NCBI GenBank assembly: GCA_002869535.1
Contig: PKUK01000005.1
Location: 1-50,206 of the forward strand
DNA: 50,206 bases
Source: Arcobacter sp.
GTDB taxonomy: Bacteria > Campylobacterota > Campylobacteria > Campylobacterales > Arcobacteraceae
Direction: 5' to 3'
Shown here one piece after another: positions 35,056 to 41,541 of the stretch (its first letter is position 1; every line of letters starts with the position of its first letter). Made by a program: the position numbers and the translations under genes. The notes below the pieces were generated by a model. It searched no databases and was not told the DNA's origin. It saw only the letters and a program-made list of their open reading frames with translations.

Positions 35056-35322
35056 CTACATATTTAAATGTATTTTATTTGATGCAAATTGATGTATTAA
35101 AACTTGGATAAGGTTTTGGTAAGGTACACCATTTTCTAAAGCTTTCTTCTTAAGTTCATAAATATCATTTTCATTAACTCTTATAGATATAGCTTTTTTC
35201 TTTTGGTGTTTTACATAAGACTGTAGTTCTAATAATCTTTTATCAATATTTTTTTTACTTTCCCATTCACCATTTTCAACACTTTGTAAAATGTCTTGTT
35301 CATATTCATCTAAATTAGTCAT
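35056..35322 (-). CDS. CopG-like antitoxin of a BrnT-like pair
   Basis: An 88-residue protein with an acidic, tyrosine-containing N-terminus (MTNLDEYEQDILQSVENGEW) and a ribbon-helix-helix-like C-terminus (KKKAISIRVNENDIYELKKK, ALENGVPYQNLIQVLIHQF). This is the pattern of BrnA/CopG antitoxins. It is downstream of and overlaps the toxin by four bases (ATGA), toxin first, as in brnTA operons. Confidence 0.75.
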   Translation of the reverse strand: MTNLDEYEQDILQSVENGEWESKKNIDKRLLELQSYVKHQKKKAISIRVNENDIYELKKKALENGVPYQNLIQVLIHQFASNKIHLNM

Positions 35323-35615
35323 TTTGAGACTCCTTTATTATATTTCTTGTTCATTTGTCTTGAAGGAATAATTGTTTTTAAAAATATCGAAGTATCATCT
35401 TCAACATACGGGACTAAATAAACATAATTTTTTATTTCAATCAAAAGAATAAAGATATTTTGATTAGGATATTTTTCTTTATTTGGATGCTCAATATCAT
35501 CCAACAAATTACCACTTTCAAGTGCCAATACCACATCTTCAAAACTTATATCTCTTTGTTCTTTTAAGAGTTCGTTTTTTTCAAGACTATATCGTATGCT
35601 TTTATTTTTAATCAC
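35319..35615 (-). CDS. BrnT-like toxin
   Basis: A 98-residue protein: SIRYSLEKNELLKEQRDISF, EDVVLALESGNLLDDIEHPN, a central beta region (IFILLIEIKNYVYLVPYVED) and TIIPSRQMNKKY. It shares with BrnT the early I-S-F-E-D block and the C-terminal S-R motif of a RelE-like fold, and it precedes a ribbon-helix-helix antitoxin. Ribonuclease toxicity is inferred from family. It forms cassette 5 with the antitoxin gene. Confidence 0.65.
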   Translation of the reverse strand: MIKNKSIRYSLEKNELLKEQRDISFEDVVLALESGNLLDDIEHPNKEKYPNQNIFILLIEIKNYVYLVPYVEDDTSIFLKTIIPSRQMNKKYNKGVSK

Positions 35616-35685
35616 TATTGATCACCTTTTTATATATACAATGTATTTTATTGTAATTAGAGAGAGATGTCAAGTTTATTTTTTT

Positions 35686-35754
35686 GATAACGGTTAAGGA
35701 GAGCAATATTTGACCCGCCCTTGGGTCAAATATTGGTTCCTGCGTTTTGTTATC
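35686..35754 (-). other. attC site of cassette 4
   Basis: Outer cores GATAACGG (plus, 35686) and TTTTGTTATC (to 35754). Inner stem CAATATTTGACCC (35704-35716) faces GGGTCAAATATTG (35723-35735), 13 perfect pairs, loop GCCCTT. Between them lie unpaired short segments as in attC. The 5' core overlaps the stop of the cassette 4 gene. Confidence 0.85.
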
Positions 35755-36052
35755 TAATAATATATTTGATGTGCGTACCAATTTTATTATTTTTAATAAT
35801 ATCTATAAATTGTTTTATCGAAACTTCTTGTTCAGATTTTATATAATCTCCATTCCATATTGAAGTAAATGTTATTCCATTTTTTGAATAATTGAAAATT
35901 TTATTTAATTCATTAGATATATGAGCCAACTTACTTTCTTCAAAAATCCAAAATTCATCATTCCAATCAGCTTCATCTGAAAGAAAATCATGTAAATTAA
36001 TATGCATCTTTTCGTAAGTATCCATTAAAATAATTTCAGTAATTAAACTCAT
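35750..36052 (-). CDS. cassette 4 protein of unknown function
   Basis: A 100-residue acidic protein starting MSLITEIILMDTYEKMHINL. I chose this ATG (36050-36052) because AAAGGA precedes it and because the longer frame would begin inside the attC site of cassette 3, beyond the cassette boundary at 36074. It contains DEADWNDEFWIFEE and ITFTSIWNGDYIKSE; no known motif. Similar stand-alone small proteins of unknown role are typical of integron cassettes. Confidence 0.7.
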   Translation of the reverse strand: MSLITEIILMDTYEKMHINLHDFLSDEADWNDEFWIFEESKLAHISNELNKIFNYSKNGITFTSIWNGDYIKSEQEVSIKQFIDIIKNNKIGTHIKYIIR

Positions 36053-36069
36053 GGTAATTTTTCCTTTTA

Positions 36070-36135
36070 GATAACGGTTGACTCTAGCCAATAAATGACC
36101 GCTAGGTCATTTATTGGTTACGAGGTTTTGTTATG
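36070..36135 (-). other. attC site of cassette 3
   Basis: Outer cores GATAACGG (36070) and TTTTGTTATG (to 36135). Inner stem CCAATAAATGACC (36088-36100) faces GGTCATTTATTGG (36105-36117), 13 perfect pairs, loop GCTA. The core TGACATAAC on the minus strand complements the start TTATGTCA of cassette 3. Confidence 0.87.
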
Positions 36136-37149
36136 TCATTTTATATGTTGCTCATAGCTTTTTAATTCTCCATTAGTAAAGTCTTGACCTACTCCATTCA
36201 TACTTGTTTGTTCTATATATTCACACATTTTAGTACAAGAAAAAGTATCAATTTTATCTTCATGATGTGCTTTAGCAAATGAAACTACAAAGTCTGACAA
36301 TTGTATTCCAAGACTGTTTTTTGAATCAATAAACTGAATACCATTTGAAAATATATTGTTTTTTGTCATATGAGCAAAGCTACCAAAAGCATCATCATTC
36401 ATCTTATAGTTACAAGCTATATCTATGATATGATTCATTCCTTTGAAGATTTTACTATTGTAATCATGTTTAAATATTGCTTTCTTATTTGGATATGTTT
36501 TAATAGTATGCTCCATAATTAGTGGCAAGACAAAAAAATTAGGTAATAATTCTTTTTTATTAAAGTTGGATAAACACTCTTGAGGTTTTTGTTTAGCAAA
36601 TTCAAAAATTGGATTCAATATATTAGTTAACTCTTCTGATTCATTTTGAATTACTTTTTTTTGTATTTTATTGATAAAATTTGATATTTCAATATAATCT
36701 TCATCTTCTATTAATGAATAAAAAGTTTTAGCATCACTATCTGTAAAATCTTCTAAAACTATGGCTAAGGCAATAAATCTATGCATTCTTTGTTGATACA
36801 TATTTGACGGAACTTTAGGGTTTAGTCCAGAGTCAAAAAAAGTATTAAAAAAATGAATTTTTGGTAAATATTTTTTTTCAATAATTGTCAAAAGGCTAGT
36901 GATATTATAATGCTCAAAAAGTTGAAGTATTTGTTCTGAAATTATAGTTAAATTATTTTTATCTAAATCATTAAAATGTAATTCATTTTCATTATTTAAA
37001 ATATTCATGAAATCATTTTTAAATTGTTCATTTTTATCAATATCAATTGGTGAAAATAAAGTAGCCATATAAAAATAAGGTTGGCTATTATCAAATAAAT
37101 TTGTACCAGTATTTCCAGACTCATCTGCATATAGGTATATATTACTCAT
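36136..37149 (-). CDS. DUF3800 domain protein (cassette 3)
   Basis: A 337-residue protein with the DUF3800 start YLYADESGNTG and a later acidic block (GIQFIDSKNSLGIQLSDFVV), where this RNase-H-like family has conserved acidic residues. Members occur in defence islands and near toxin genes, but a function is not established. Fills a 1.1 kb cassette alone; the stop overlaps the attC core and the start lies 24 bases inside the cassette. Confidence 0.78.
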   Translation of the reverse strand: MSNIYLYADESGNTGTNLFDNSQPYFYMATLFSPIDIDKNEQFKNDFMNILNNENELHFNDLDKNNLTIISEQILQLFEHYNITSLLTIIEKKYLPKIHFFNTFFDSGLNPKVPSNMYQQRMHRFIALAIVLEDFTDSDAKTFYSLIEDEDYIEISNFINKIQKKVIQNESEELTNILNPIFEFAKQKPQECLSNFNKKELLPNFFVLPLIMEHTIKTYPNKKAIFKHDYNSKIFKGMNHIIDIACNYKMNDDAFGSFAHMTKNNIFSNGIQFIDSKNSLGIQLSDFVVSFAKAHHEDKIDTFSCTKMCEYIEQTSMNGVGQDFTNGELKSYEQHIK

Positions 37150-37168
37150 GTATTAATATTTCCTTTGA

Positions 37169-37235
37169 CATAACGTTTAAAATGAGCTAATAAATTTCCC
37201 GCAGGGTAATTTATTAGCTCCTCTGATTTGTTAGA
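37169..37235 (-). other. attC site of cassette 2
   Basis: Outer cores CATAACG (37169) and TTGTTAGA (to 37235). Inner stem GAGCTAATAAATTTCCC (37184-37200) faces GGGTAATTTATTAGCTC (37204-37220), 17 positions with one mismatch, loop GCA. TCTAAC on the minus strand complements the start TTAGA of cassette 2. Confidence 0.87.
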
Positions 37236-37246
37236 TTTTTTTAATT

Positions 37247-37735
37247 TCATGGTTTACAGTTATTGTAAAATTGAATTTCTTTTTTTTGAGCTCTTCGTAA
37301 TGAAATAATCCGATATCGCATTTTCCCAACTTCATCTCTGAATGTATAAATGGCAGTATAGATTTTTCCATCTATTGACCCAGTTAGTTTTGCTCTAATA
37401 GGATCAAGATTACCTTCATTCCTTTCAACACTTTCATCTAGATTACTCAGATCTTCCCATTTGTTAGGTTGCTCGACCTGTTGAACCATATGTTGATCTG
37501 CAAACAAATCGTAAATTCGATTAAATGAAATTCCATGTTTCTCTATATTCTTTTGGTTTTTGTTTTCATCCCATTCAAATTGATTGTCTTGGAATTCAAC
37601 ATAGTGCTCACAAAAGTATGAATCCTTTATTACCATAAAATCACCCGATTTTGGACTATTTATTTTGTTCATACATCTCAAGCCCAAATTGAAAAAAGTT
37701 AAATCTCTATAATATTGGCATGATGTACAATCCAT
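37247..37735 (-). CDS. BrnT-like domain fused to a cysteine-rich N-terminus (cassette 2)
   Basis: A 162-residue protein in two parts. Residues 1-45 carry four cysteines (CTSCQYYRD, LRCMNK, FCEHYVEF), a possible small metal site. From about residue 50 comes a BrnT-like domain: FEWDENKNQKNIEKHGISFN then IYDLFADQH, and RYRIISLRRAQKKEIQFY, which holds the R-I-I-S-x-R motif. There is an insertion of about 30 residues in the middle (VEQPNKWEDLSNLDESVERN). No antitoxin gene shares the cassette, so it may be an orphan or may have another role. Confidence 0.75.
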   Translation of the reverse strand: MDCTSCQYYRDLTFFNLGLRCMNKINSPKSGDFMVIKDSYFCEHYVEFQDNQFEWDENKNQKNIEKHGISFNRIYDLFADQHMVQQVEQPNKWEDLSNLDESVERNEGNLDPIRAKLTGSIDGKIYTAIYTFRDEVGKMRYRIISLRRAQKKEIQFYNNCKP

Positions 37736-37758
37736 CTTTATCCTTCTACTTCTGTTAA

Positions 37759-37817
37759 TCTAACGCTTAGCTAAGCGGCGCGCGTTAGCGCGTCCTTGCT
37801 TGAGCGCCTTGTTATGT
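37759..37817 (-). other. attC site of cassette 1 (GC-rich, classical type)
   Basis: On the minus strand CACATAACAAGGCGCTCAAG at the 5' end and GCTTAGCTAAGCGTTAGA at the 3' end, with GGACGCGC facing GCGCGCC in the middle. This is like the classical attC sites of proteobacterial mobile integrons, unlike the AT-rich sites of the other cassettes. CACATAAC complements the cassette start TTATGTG. Confidence 0.9.
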
Positions 37818-38477
37818 GCTTTTTGGTCGAGGGGGTGTGGCACTAGATATTTCCTCAATCCTTTTTTCTAATATTGTTGCATTTAACAGATGTTCAATTA
37901 TGTCCGCAATCGATTGAAGTGTTTGTTCAGATGGGCTGTATCCGCGGTGCGAGGATGCATTTCCGGCATCTACTGCCACGTCAAGCAGTTTCTTTTGAGT
38001 TGAGCTAATCAGGCCCTGTTGTTCCAAAGCCTTTAGTTTAGAAACAAAGCTTCCTTTATCTCCTACTTTCTCTACTAAGTACATGTCAATAACAGTTCTA
38101 AAGCCCATTAGGGTCAACCGAAATAGGCCTCTATTAAAAGCCGAGTAGACTTCCGCAAGTATTTCAATGTACTTTCTATCGAGGCCAAATATCCAAGATG
38201 GTACTTTCCGAATAGAGCCTCCAGGGATTTTCTGGGTCCCGGTGTTTTTGTTTCCAACGTGAATAGTTTCAATATCAAGGTTCAAATAGTCACACCCTAA
38301 GCATTTTGTGATCTCCCACTCACGTTGTTCTACAACCCACCTAGGTTCGCCTTTTAGGCTTTCGAAGAAGACCTCTTGAGTATCGAACTCTGTCTCTTTG
38401 AAAACAATTTCCTGATTTGTATCACCATCGCAGTGATGGCAAAAAGCTTTTTTTCTTTCGTCTTTCAAGATTGACAC
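37812..38477 (-). CDS. DUF4145 domain protein (cassette 1, foreign base composition)
   Basis: A 221-residue protein with an N-terminal zinc-finger-like region (KKAFCHHCDGDTNQ, later CLGCDYLNLD) and a DUF4145 region (FRTVIDMYLVEKVGDKGSF, VDAGNASSHRGYSPSEQT). The domain is common in defence-associated proteins and often fused to restriction subunits, but its role is unknown. The start is a GTG at 38475-38477 with a poor ribosome binding site. Base composition is unlike the window: 34 of 60 bases in 37921-37980 are G or C. It was probably acquired recently, from a higher-GC donor. Confidence 0.8.
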   Translation of the reverse strand: MSILKDERKKAFCHHCDGDTNQEIVFKETEFDTQEVFFESLKGEPRWVVEQREWEITKCLGCDYLNLDIETIHVGNKNTGTQKIPGGSIRKVPSWIFGLDRKYIEILAEVYSAFNRGLFRLTLMGFRTVIDMYLVEKVGDKGSFVSKLKALEQQGLISSTQKKLLDVAVDAGNASSHRGYSPSEQTLQSIADIIEHLLNATILEKRIEEISSATPPRPKST

Positions 38478-38499
38478 CTAGGTTTGATTTTAGGACAGC

Positions 38500-38530
38500 A
38501 CATAACTATTTATTGAATGTACATTATATA
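38500..38530 (-). other. attI-cassette junction
   Basis: The first cassette begins at the point G|TTATGTG on the minus strand, between 38506 and 38505, after the attI-side sequence ATTCAATAAATAG. The attI site should extend from here toward intI. No second simple core can be named with confidence. The stretch 38506-38758 holds no gene and should carry the intI promoter; TTATAAT at about 38647 is a candidate -10. Confidence 0.6.
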
Positions 38531-38758: not shown

Positions 38759-39211
38759 ATGGGTAAAAAGTTACTTGATATAATGAGGGATAAAATAAGA
38801 GTGAAGCATTATAGTATAAAAACAGAAAATGTATATATTTATTGGGCAAAGAAATATATATTATTTCATAATAAACGACATCCAAAAGATATGGGGAAAT
38901 TAGAAATCGAACAGTTTCTTACCCATCTTGCTACGAAGTTAAATGTATCTCCAACAACACAGAACCAAGCATTTAAGGCAATATTATTTTTATACGAACA
39001 AGTTTTAAATATATCATTAAAAAATGAAAATATACAAGCTTTAAGAGCTAAAGAGAGAAAACATATTCCAGTTGTTCTAACTATAGAGGAAGTAAAAAGT
39101 ATCATTCTTAATATGAAAGGCATCTATCAACTTATGGTCAAACTTATGTACGGGTGTGGACTTATTTGGGGGGGGTCTGACCCCAAATTATCCTTTTTAA
39201 TTCAATACTAA
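38759..39211 (+). pseudogene. intI: integron integrase, truncated before the catalytic core
   Basis: The start MGKKLLDIMRDKIRVKHYSI at 38759 has TAGGAG upstream. The N-terminal region follows IntI proteins closely: YIYWAKKYILFHNKRHPKDM, LEIEQFLTHLATKLNVSPTT, QNQAFKAILFLYEQVL, IPVVLTIEEVKSIILNM, YQLMVKLMYGCGL. At this point an intact protein continues R-L-x-E, the first catalytic arginine, but here it reads IWGGSDPKLSFLIQY and stops. About half of the usual 320 residues are gone, with the H-x-x-R box and the catalytic tyrosine. The missing part is not found downstream, where another gene follows on the other strand. Confidence 0.9.
39164..39188. repeat. GGGGTCTGACCCC palindrome at the intI breakpoint
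   Basis: ATTTGGGG, an extra GGGG, TCTGA, CCCCAAAT. The junction where IntI homology ends lies at or next to this palindrome. Similar GGGGTC...GACCCC motifs accompany some REP-associated or IS200-like transposase genes, from memory, but no transposase gene is present. Confidence 0.6.

Positions 39212-40086: not shown

Positions 40087-40087
<1 letters not shown>
40053..40087. terminator. terminator after guaB
   Basis: GATGTT, loop TAG, AACATC, extended outward by AAAAG and CTTTT. It has A and T runs on both sides, so it can act for guaB (minus) and for transcripts coming from the left. Confidence 0.65.

Positions 40088-41541
<1,454 letters not shown>

Follow-up and report, generated by a model that had tools for sequence, protein, structure and literature searches.

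The DNA that we analysed, referred to here as the window, is a stretch of 50,206 nucleotides from Arcobacter sp. that makes up the whole of contig C6 in a genome of 2.68 Mb. It contains an integron array flanked by guaB and by LysE/LysR-type genes; the names guaB and LysR rest on the protein sequences, and LysE was named by Pfam. Four cassettes in the array keep complete attC sites, all on the minus strand. The array and its surroundings consist of the following features, in which R1 and R2 are covariance models described below.

40087-41532, minus strand: guaB, one border of the integron
39172-39184, plus strand: palindrome GGGGTCTGACCCC, at the intI break, present once in the genome
38759-39211, plus strand: intI, truncated integron integrase gene, TIGR02249 positions 1-130 of 315
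38504-38530, plus strand: attI, motif AACTATTTATTGAATATACATTATATA with 1 mismatch; the AAC at 38504-38506 is the joint with cassette 1
37764-38505, minus strand: cassette 1, 742 bp, from the R'-box cut of its own attC to the attI cut
37812-38477, minus strand: DUF4145 gene, Pfam PF13643 (E 9.8e-14), 221 aa read from GTG
37758-37818, minus strand: attC of cassette 1 (attC 1), 61 bp, assigned to a gammaproteobacterial type from its hairpin, model R2 and BLAST counts
37174-37763, minus strand: cassette 2, with a BrnT-like gene at 37247-37735, Pfam BrnT_toxin (E 1.2e-16)
37168-37236, minus strand: attC 2, host type, R1 89.4 bits
36075-37173, minus strand: cassette 3, with a DUF3800 gene at 36136-37149, Pfam DUF3800 (E 9.5e-13)
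36069-36136, minus strand: attC 3, host type, R1 66.0 bits
35691-36074, minus strand: cassette 4, with a gene at 35750-36091 from TTG, or 35750-36052 from an inner ATG
35685-35755, minus strand: attC 4, host type, R1 55.5 bits
35056-35615, minus strand: former cassette 5, a BrnT-like/CopG-like pair whose attC is gone beyond the R'' box

The stop codon TAA of the DUF4145 gene falls inside the R'' box of attC 1, and a TTG at 38468, which stands behind AGGTG, may be the true start of that gene. The preliminary description of this DNA had given cassette 1 the span 37759-38505; the right end does lie at attI, but the left limit is 37764. No Pfam family matched the cassette 4 gene, PADLOC returned nothing for three cassette proteins and Rfam returned nothing at gathering scores for the window.

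Junctions of cassette 1 and history of the locus

The R'' box of attC 1, GCACATAAC, is the exact complement of the 5' end of cassette 1 itself, GTTATGTGC. Of 22 arrays, 18 carry close to intI a copy of the attI motif AACTATTTATTGAATATACATTATATA that differs from it at 0 to 6 positions; L083 and L090 were accepted with 6 mismatches, L082, L086, L094 and L101 were left out as having no attI match beside intI, and the only, far-off match of L101 was ignored, as were far-off second matches in L084 and L095. The rule that a cassette's 5' end complements its R'' delimited the first cassette in 17 of these 18 arrays, the first R'' of L097 not being found. Aligned with the DNA of G391 and G122, the window agrees closely from the attI AAC (38504) onward and diverges before it. 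The R''-complementary 5' end and the exact attI joint point to insertion by attI x attC recombination, and we take cassette 1 to have entered in this way. The folded bottom strand of an attC is the substrate of this recombination, and attC 1 has both R'' and R' core sites around a foldable imperfect palindrome; these core sites, together with insertion at attI and a 5' end complementary to the own R'', are the features by which we recognise a cassette. A search with the strict motif RYYYAAC...GTTRRRY missed every attC site, attC 1 because its R'' ACATAAC departs from RYYYAAC. The looser rule used instead also flagged places outside the array near 2731, 12556 and 16276, which we take for chance palindromes rather than attC sites.

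The locus itself is native to the host: integrases of the family share up to 90% identity with the intI fragment (the best pieces of 20 loci, L082-L101, range from 59 to 90%), and some family loci also have guaB nearby. As in the window, guaB is at most about 1.3 kb from intI in three of 21 family loci (L084, L098 and L101), the guaB-side DNA being short in most of the 21 loci compared, and this suggests an old chromosomal position. Former cassette 5 shares 97% DNA identity over 357 bases and 92% over 87 bases with a cassette of G452 (L082, contig C10), which belongs to another genus of the same family; the shared pair spans positions 35056-35440 of the window and the likeness ends at ATAACAA. 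Behind the G452 copy (L082:2174-2230) R1 gives a match of 35.2 bits, and at former cassette 5 of the window it gives none. Former cassette 5 is a case of exchange within the family, and since it is 97% identical to a cassette from another genus, the older cassettes of the array are also mobile.

Base composition and attC type

The DUF4145 gene has a GC content of 41.3% and a GC3 of 38.3%. A recount of positions 37921-37980 gave exactly the 34 G+C in 60 bases that had been reported, and the accompanying claim that the gene is far richer in G+C than its neighbours agrees with a wider comparison, in which none of 325 ORFs of the same genome (mechanically called, at least 150 aa, from 400 kb at twenty places) is as high in GC and none is as high in GC3. 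The GC3 of these ORFs has a mean of 0.166, a standard deviation of 0.036 and a maximum of 0.345, so that the gene stands about 6 standard deviations off the mean of its own genome. When a frame of 666 bases is moved over the whole window, the GC of the gene is equalled solely within 37662-38496, and in eleven other genes of the neighbourhood GC3 runs from 0.09 to 0.26. The older cassettes had been said to match the host. This describes cassettes 3 and 4, whose composition is ordinary against the 325 ORFs, and the attC sites of cassettes 2 to 4, which are of the host-family type, but cassette 2 is mildly raised (GC3 0.245, matched by 12 of the 325 ORFs). A composition so strongly unlike that of the host might also be the mark of an assembly artefact or of contamination; the stretch lies inside the contig between host sequences, and each of its ends coincides with a recombination point at single-base precision, which is rare for a chance chimera, so we consider this explanation extremely improbable.

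The attC types were compared by BLAST and by covariance models, and the search for sites like attC 1 covered Campylobacterota, a single gammaproteobacterial order, plasmids and E. coli genomes. With a query of 78 bases, E <= 1e-3 and at most two candidates scored per genome, attC 1 matched 44 of 394 genomes of the order to which the genome behind locus L052 (Enterobacter sp.) belongs, here called the Enterobacter order. Among 397 Campylobacterota genomes it matched only itself (0 of the 396 others). The match extends over at least 50 bases in 15 of the 394 genomes, the best being 92% over 52 bases; in the remaining 29 of the 44 no match is as long as 50 bases, and several cover just a 22-base hairpin stretch. 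For 15 genomes the matches were retrieved as loci; an integron integrase above the cut-off is present in 11 of these genomes and absent from 4, among them G846 and also G642, which has one of the two best matches. The control in the other direction, with attC 2 as the query, matched 41 of 104 host-family genomes but none of 177 from the Enterobacter order. Plasmids (72,556 records) gave one match to attC 1, in Vibrio campbellii (82%), and four to attC 2, in Aliarcobacter (three) and Sulfurospirillum (one), and attC 1 had no match in the E. coli genomes. Because a related gammaproteobacterial site used as the query found plasmid matches in Citrobacter and Pseudomonas besides Vibrio, the type of attC 1 appears to be wider than Vibrio. 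The 16 loci around gammaproteobacterial attC matches (L102-L117) have a GC of 0.37-0.46.

Model R1 was built from 20 host-family attC sites with those of the window excluded, and model R2 from 12 gammaproteobacterial sites picked for their likeness to attC 1. R1 reports attC 2, 3 and 4 with the scores listed above, leaves attC 1 unreported at E <= 0.05 and has 0 matches in 9 gammaproteobacterial loci. R2 gives attC 1 a score of 76.2 bits (E 6e-20), with a next best of 26.8 bits in 400,722 bases, and 16 matches in the gammaproteobacterial loci, some of them sites from which it was built; its score on attC 1 is partly built in and thus illustrative, and the genome counts, which are free of such bias, are the actual test. 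When an Arcobacteraceae-type attC is defined as one that R1 matches, attC 2 to 4 are of this type and attC 1 is not. By its likeness to the sites of the gammaproteobacterial group and its unlikeness to those of the host group, attC 1 can be assigned to a gammaproteobacterial type.

These counts also bear on the possibility that the donor was a higher-GC member of the Campylobacterota with an attC type of its own, in which case the transfer would have stayed within the phylum. Genomes of Campylobacterota do differ in GC, which would allow for such a donor, and the host-type attC in a Sulfurospirillum plasmid indicates that cassettes move within the phylum, where plasmids of Aliarcobacter and Sulfurospirillum may be their carriers. 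Against it, both attC 1 and the protein are absent from the 396 other Campylobacterota genomes, which represent 68 genera, while attC 1 recurs in the 44 genomes of one gammaproteobacterial order, and we therefore hold a donor from within the phylum to be improbable.

The DUF4145 protein and its relatives

Among the 397 Campylobacterota genomes the DUF4145 protein was found in one, its own; closest homologues of the same composition in Campylobacterota chromosomes outside integrons had been named as the finding that would speak against a foreign origin, and the 396 other genomes have no homologue. A scan of 84,980 species genomes by peptide patterns found 47 homologous loci with 25-43% identity in the best segment, of which 37 are Alphaproteobacteria by record title and none is titled Campylobacterota. 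Twenty of the 47 were aligned and have 25-42% identity, the nearest alphaproteobacterial homologues reaching 36-42% in the aligned parts. Homologues occur in 22 of the 72,556 plasmid records with at most 35.7% protein identity, and a DNA search of the same records gave no match; in the Enterobacter order 4 of 394 genomes have matches to the protein, at most 35% identical. A first scan of species genome contigs with peptide patterns found no DUF4145 protein, the phages scanned had none, and viral contigs had none in a first scan and 20 loci, with at most 35% identity, in a later one. The contig scans use short peptide patterns, which relatives lacking those patterns would escape, and records very near the genome of the window may be missing from the collections searched.

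These results change part of the earlier picture. Its view that cassette 1 is foreign agrees with the composition, with the attC type and with the protein, the last two having 0 of 396 other Campylobacterota genomes each, and as far as the phylum was sampled, the DUF4145 gene comes from outside it. The near-identical cassette that was expected in Vibrio, Shewanella or similar bacteria was not found in the 84,980 species genomes, the 72,556 plasmid records or the 394 genomes of the Enterobacter order, which takes away the basis for speaking of direct evidence; a recent capture is not supported either, the protein relatives found being just 25-43% identical. Because these relatives are so distant and mostly alphaproteobacterial, we name no donor, and the gene and the attC do not point to the same named one.

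The protein relatives are also what favours another origin, that the cassette was made elsewhere, for example in an alphaproteobacterial or unsampled lineage, and that its attC is gamma-like by convergence or through a common environment. Ghaly et al. (PMC8352920) report that environment, and not host phylogeny, is what groups attC sites, so convergence of attC 1 with the gammaproteobacterial type is conceivable, and the 37 of 47 loci with alphaproteobacterial titles would fit such a source. The likeness of attC 1, however, lies in the base sequence of both arms, where it reaches 92% over 52 bases and seems closer than folding alone would demand, and it recurs within one order; we consider an origin elsewhere unlikely, though less so than a donor from within the phylum. 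In more general terms the cassette may come from an unsampled source, as the DUF4145 protein has no close relative and the gene and the attC do not agree on a named donor.

A sequence search of solved structures with the DUF4145 protein gave nothing useful. In its predicted model (mean pLDDT 84.0, pTM 0.60) the N-terminal part is rich in strands and the C-terminal domain is helical. HEPN proteins lead the structural matches of the helical domain (2hsb, with a Z of 11.2 and an rmsd of 3.1 A over 111 residues), although helical bundles can reach such a Z by chance, and Foldseek gives 2hsb a probability of 1.00, yet no match at E <= 0.001. The N-terminal part of the model aligns with NrdR chains at a Z of about 5, and NrdR contains a zinc ribbon. 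The cargo would thus be a DUF4145 protein whose N-terminal part resembles a zinc ribbon and whose helical domain resembles HEPN, and it probably acts as an accessory protein in conflict or stress. PMC3710099 places DUF4145 in the HEPN superfamily and puts forward the hypothesis that HEPN domains in some integron cassettes are stress-related RNases. The protein of the window shares with this superfamily the Pfam DUF4145 match, and HEPN chains align best with the helical domain of its predicted model, but it differs in that the Rx4-6H motif typical of active HEPN RNases is missing: D-A-G stands at positions 170-172 before His177, with no Arg there. The 20 other aligned sequences, which were selected through a pattern covering those residues, have D/N-A-G, also without Arg. 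As Rx4-6H is absent, RNase activity should not be assumed.

Integrase loss and the origin of cassette 1

The intI gene keeps only positions 1-130 of the 315 of the model and hence does not encode a full-length catalytic integrase, a truncation that the preliminary description does not mention. Likeness to its relatives stops near 39160, right before the arginine of their GLR motif; in the alignment the DNA agrees with theirs as far as 'GL' and diverges where they have 'R', which is presumably the first catalytic residue of tyrosine recombinases. The best match to another integron integrase in the genome reaches 52.6 bits against a cut-off of 265. A tyrosine recombinase fragment (L004, model positions 257-301) was considered as the missing part of intI and rejected, its surroundings being unlike as judged by eye. 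The end of intI (39163-39190) is a run of G followed by GGGGTCTGACCCC, which may mark the end of an element or a scar. Two other species of the genus were in the search, of which G411 has an intact integrase and G122 only a remnant.

As the integrase is cut off before what is presumably its first catalytic arginine, its own enzyme can no longer be expected to change the array. The capture of cassette 1 preceded the loss of the enzyme, unless an integrase acted in trans, and the picture of a fresh capture by an active integron therefore needs correcting. That cassette 1 is the newest by position, as had been proposed, is reasonable given its intact attI junction, but an integrase without its C-terminal part should recruit no more cassettes.

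The reading that we prefer, and consider highly probable, brings together the junctions, the composition, the attC type, the absence from relatives and the truncation of intI: cassette 1 would have been transferred into an Arcobacteraceae chromosomal integron from or through a gammaproteobacterial integron, before the integrase was lost. The capture across phyla is well supported, and we infer the direction of the transfer, the order of events and the function of the cargo. The recipient would have been a Campylobacterota species (Arcobacteraceae) whose sedentary chromosomal integron still had a whole integrase, and the cassette would have been built in, or passed through, the integron of a gammaproteobacterium. 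The incoming attC, with its bottom strand folded, would have recombined with attI to leave the exact joint at 38504-38506. The integrase would then have lost its catalytic part, after which the array was no longer changed by its own enzyme; because of this later loss, cassette 1 would be the last one kept at attI.

Other arrays of the family were compared by the composition of the first cassette, which could be delimited in 17. In 14 of them the cassette GC is 0.227-0.341 and the attC GC 0.27-0.43; the other three, which belong to two genera, have a GC-rich first cassette with a GC-rich attC. These are the window (GC 0.414, attC 0.596), G122 of the same genus (L142 14578-14971; GC 0.417, attC 0.641; an ABM-domain gene) and G292 of another genus, with an intact integrase (reverse complement of L087 16238-16836; GC 0.402, attC 0.607, the R' end used being perhaps 9 bases short). 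An E. coli plasmid has a site that matches the first attC of G122 with 89.5% identity over 76 bases, the gene of that G122 cassette has no DNA match in the plasmids, and the first attC of G292 has no match there. Foreign-looking attC sites, among which we count these two, also lie deeper in arrays (L095, L096 and L097), and we claim no excess of foreign cassettes at attI, the difference between about 3 of 17 first and about 3 of 51 other cassettes (Fisher p = 0.16) coming from a rough hand count of covariance-model matches. We are evenly divided on whether the integrons of the family are an open entry gate for proteobacterial cassettes, with integrases that accept foreign attC sites, GC-rich cassettes that repeatedly land at attI, and integrase loss that freezes snapshots of the process.

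Ghaly et al. (2021, PMC8352920) describe taxon-specific attC models by which cassettes are traced between taxa; eleven taxa were modelled, and Campylobacterota is absent from the passage that names them. A passage of a review (PMC8618304) lists Campylobacterota among the phyla with integrons. Like the sedentary chromosomal integrons of PMC8352920, the window has intI next to attI, cassettes that all point the same way, an attC type of the host and one attC of a foreign type; unlike them it comes from a Campylobacterota host, outside the eleven taxa named, and its integrase is truncated. It resembles a CALIN (a cluster of attC sites lacking an integrase) in having no working integrase beside the array, but attI and the N-terminal part of intI remain, so that it is an integron minus its enzyme and not an isolated cluster. 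The case is a well-supported fresh instance of a known process, gene transfer by integron cassette, and the two-way attC control shows that a cassette very probably moved between phyla. Among the papers listed on the integrons of Arcobacter, Epsilonproteobacteria and Campylobacterota, titles and abstract openings do not describe the attC type of Arcobacteraceae, and a recurrent attC type and a conserved attI are now described for an integron family that such titles and openings cover little. Its intact integrases, with host and foreign attC sites, offer material on how attC preference limits gene exchange.

Three further attC sites were noted. In L103 (G848:C41:2953-3004), one of the two best gammaproteobacterial matches to attC 1, the match stops before R' and the sequence turns into GTGTGTGCCGGGCATGG, which we take to resemble the start of an attC-targeting group II intron. 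A host-type attC (R1 85 bits) lies on another contig of the genome of the window (L143 4836-4905, G000:C5) between two large ORFs, with no second attC in the surrounding 10 kb. Another host-type attC is carried by the Aliarcobacter cryaerophilus plasmid pM830MA (L172, 3001-3070), near genes annotated as DUF4917 and TIR-domain.
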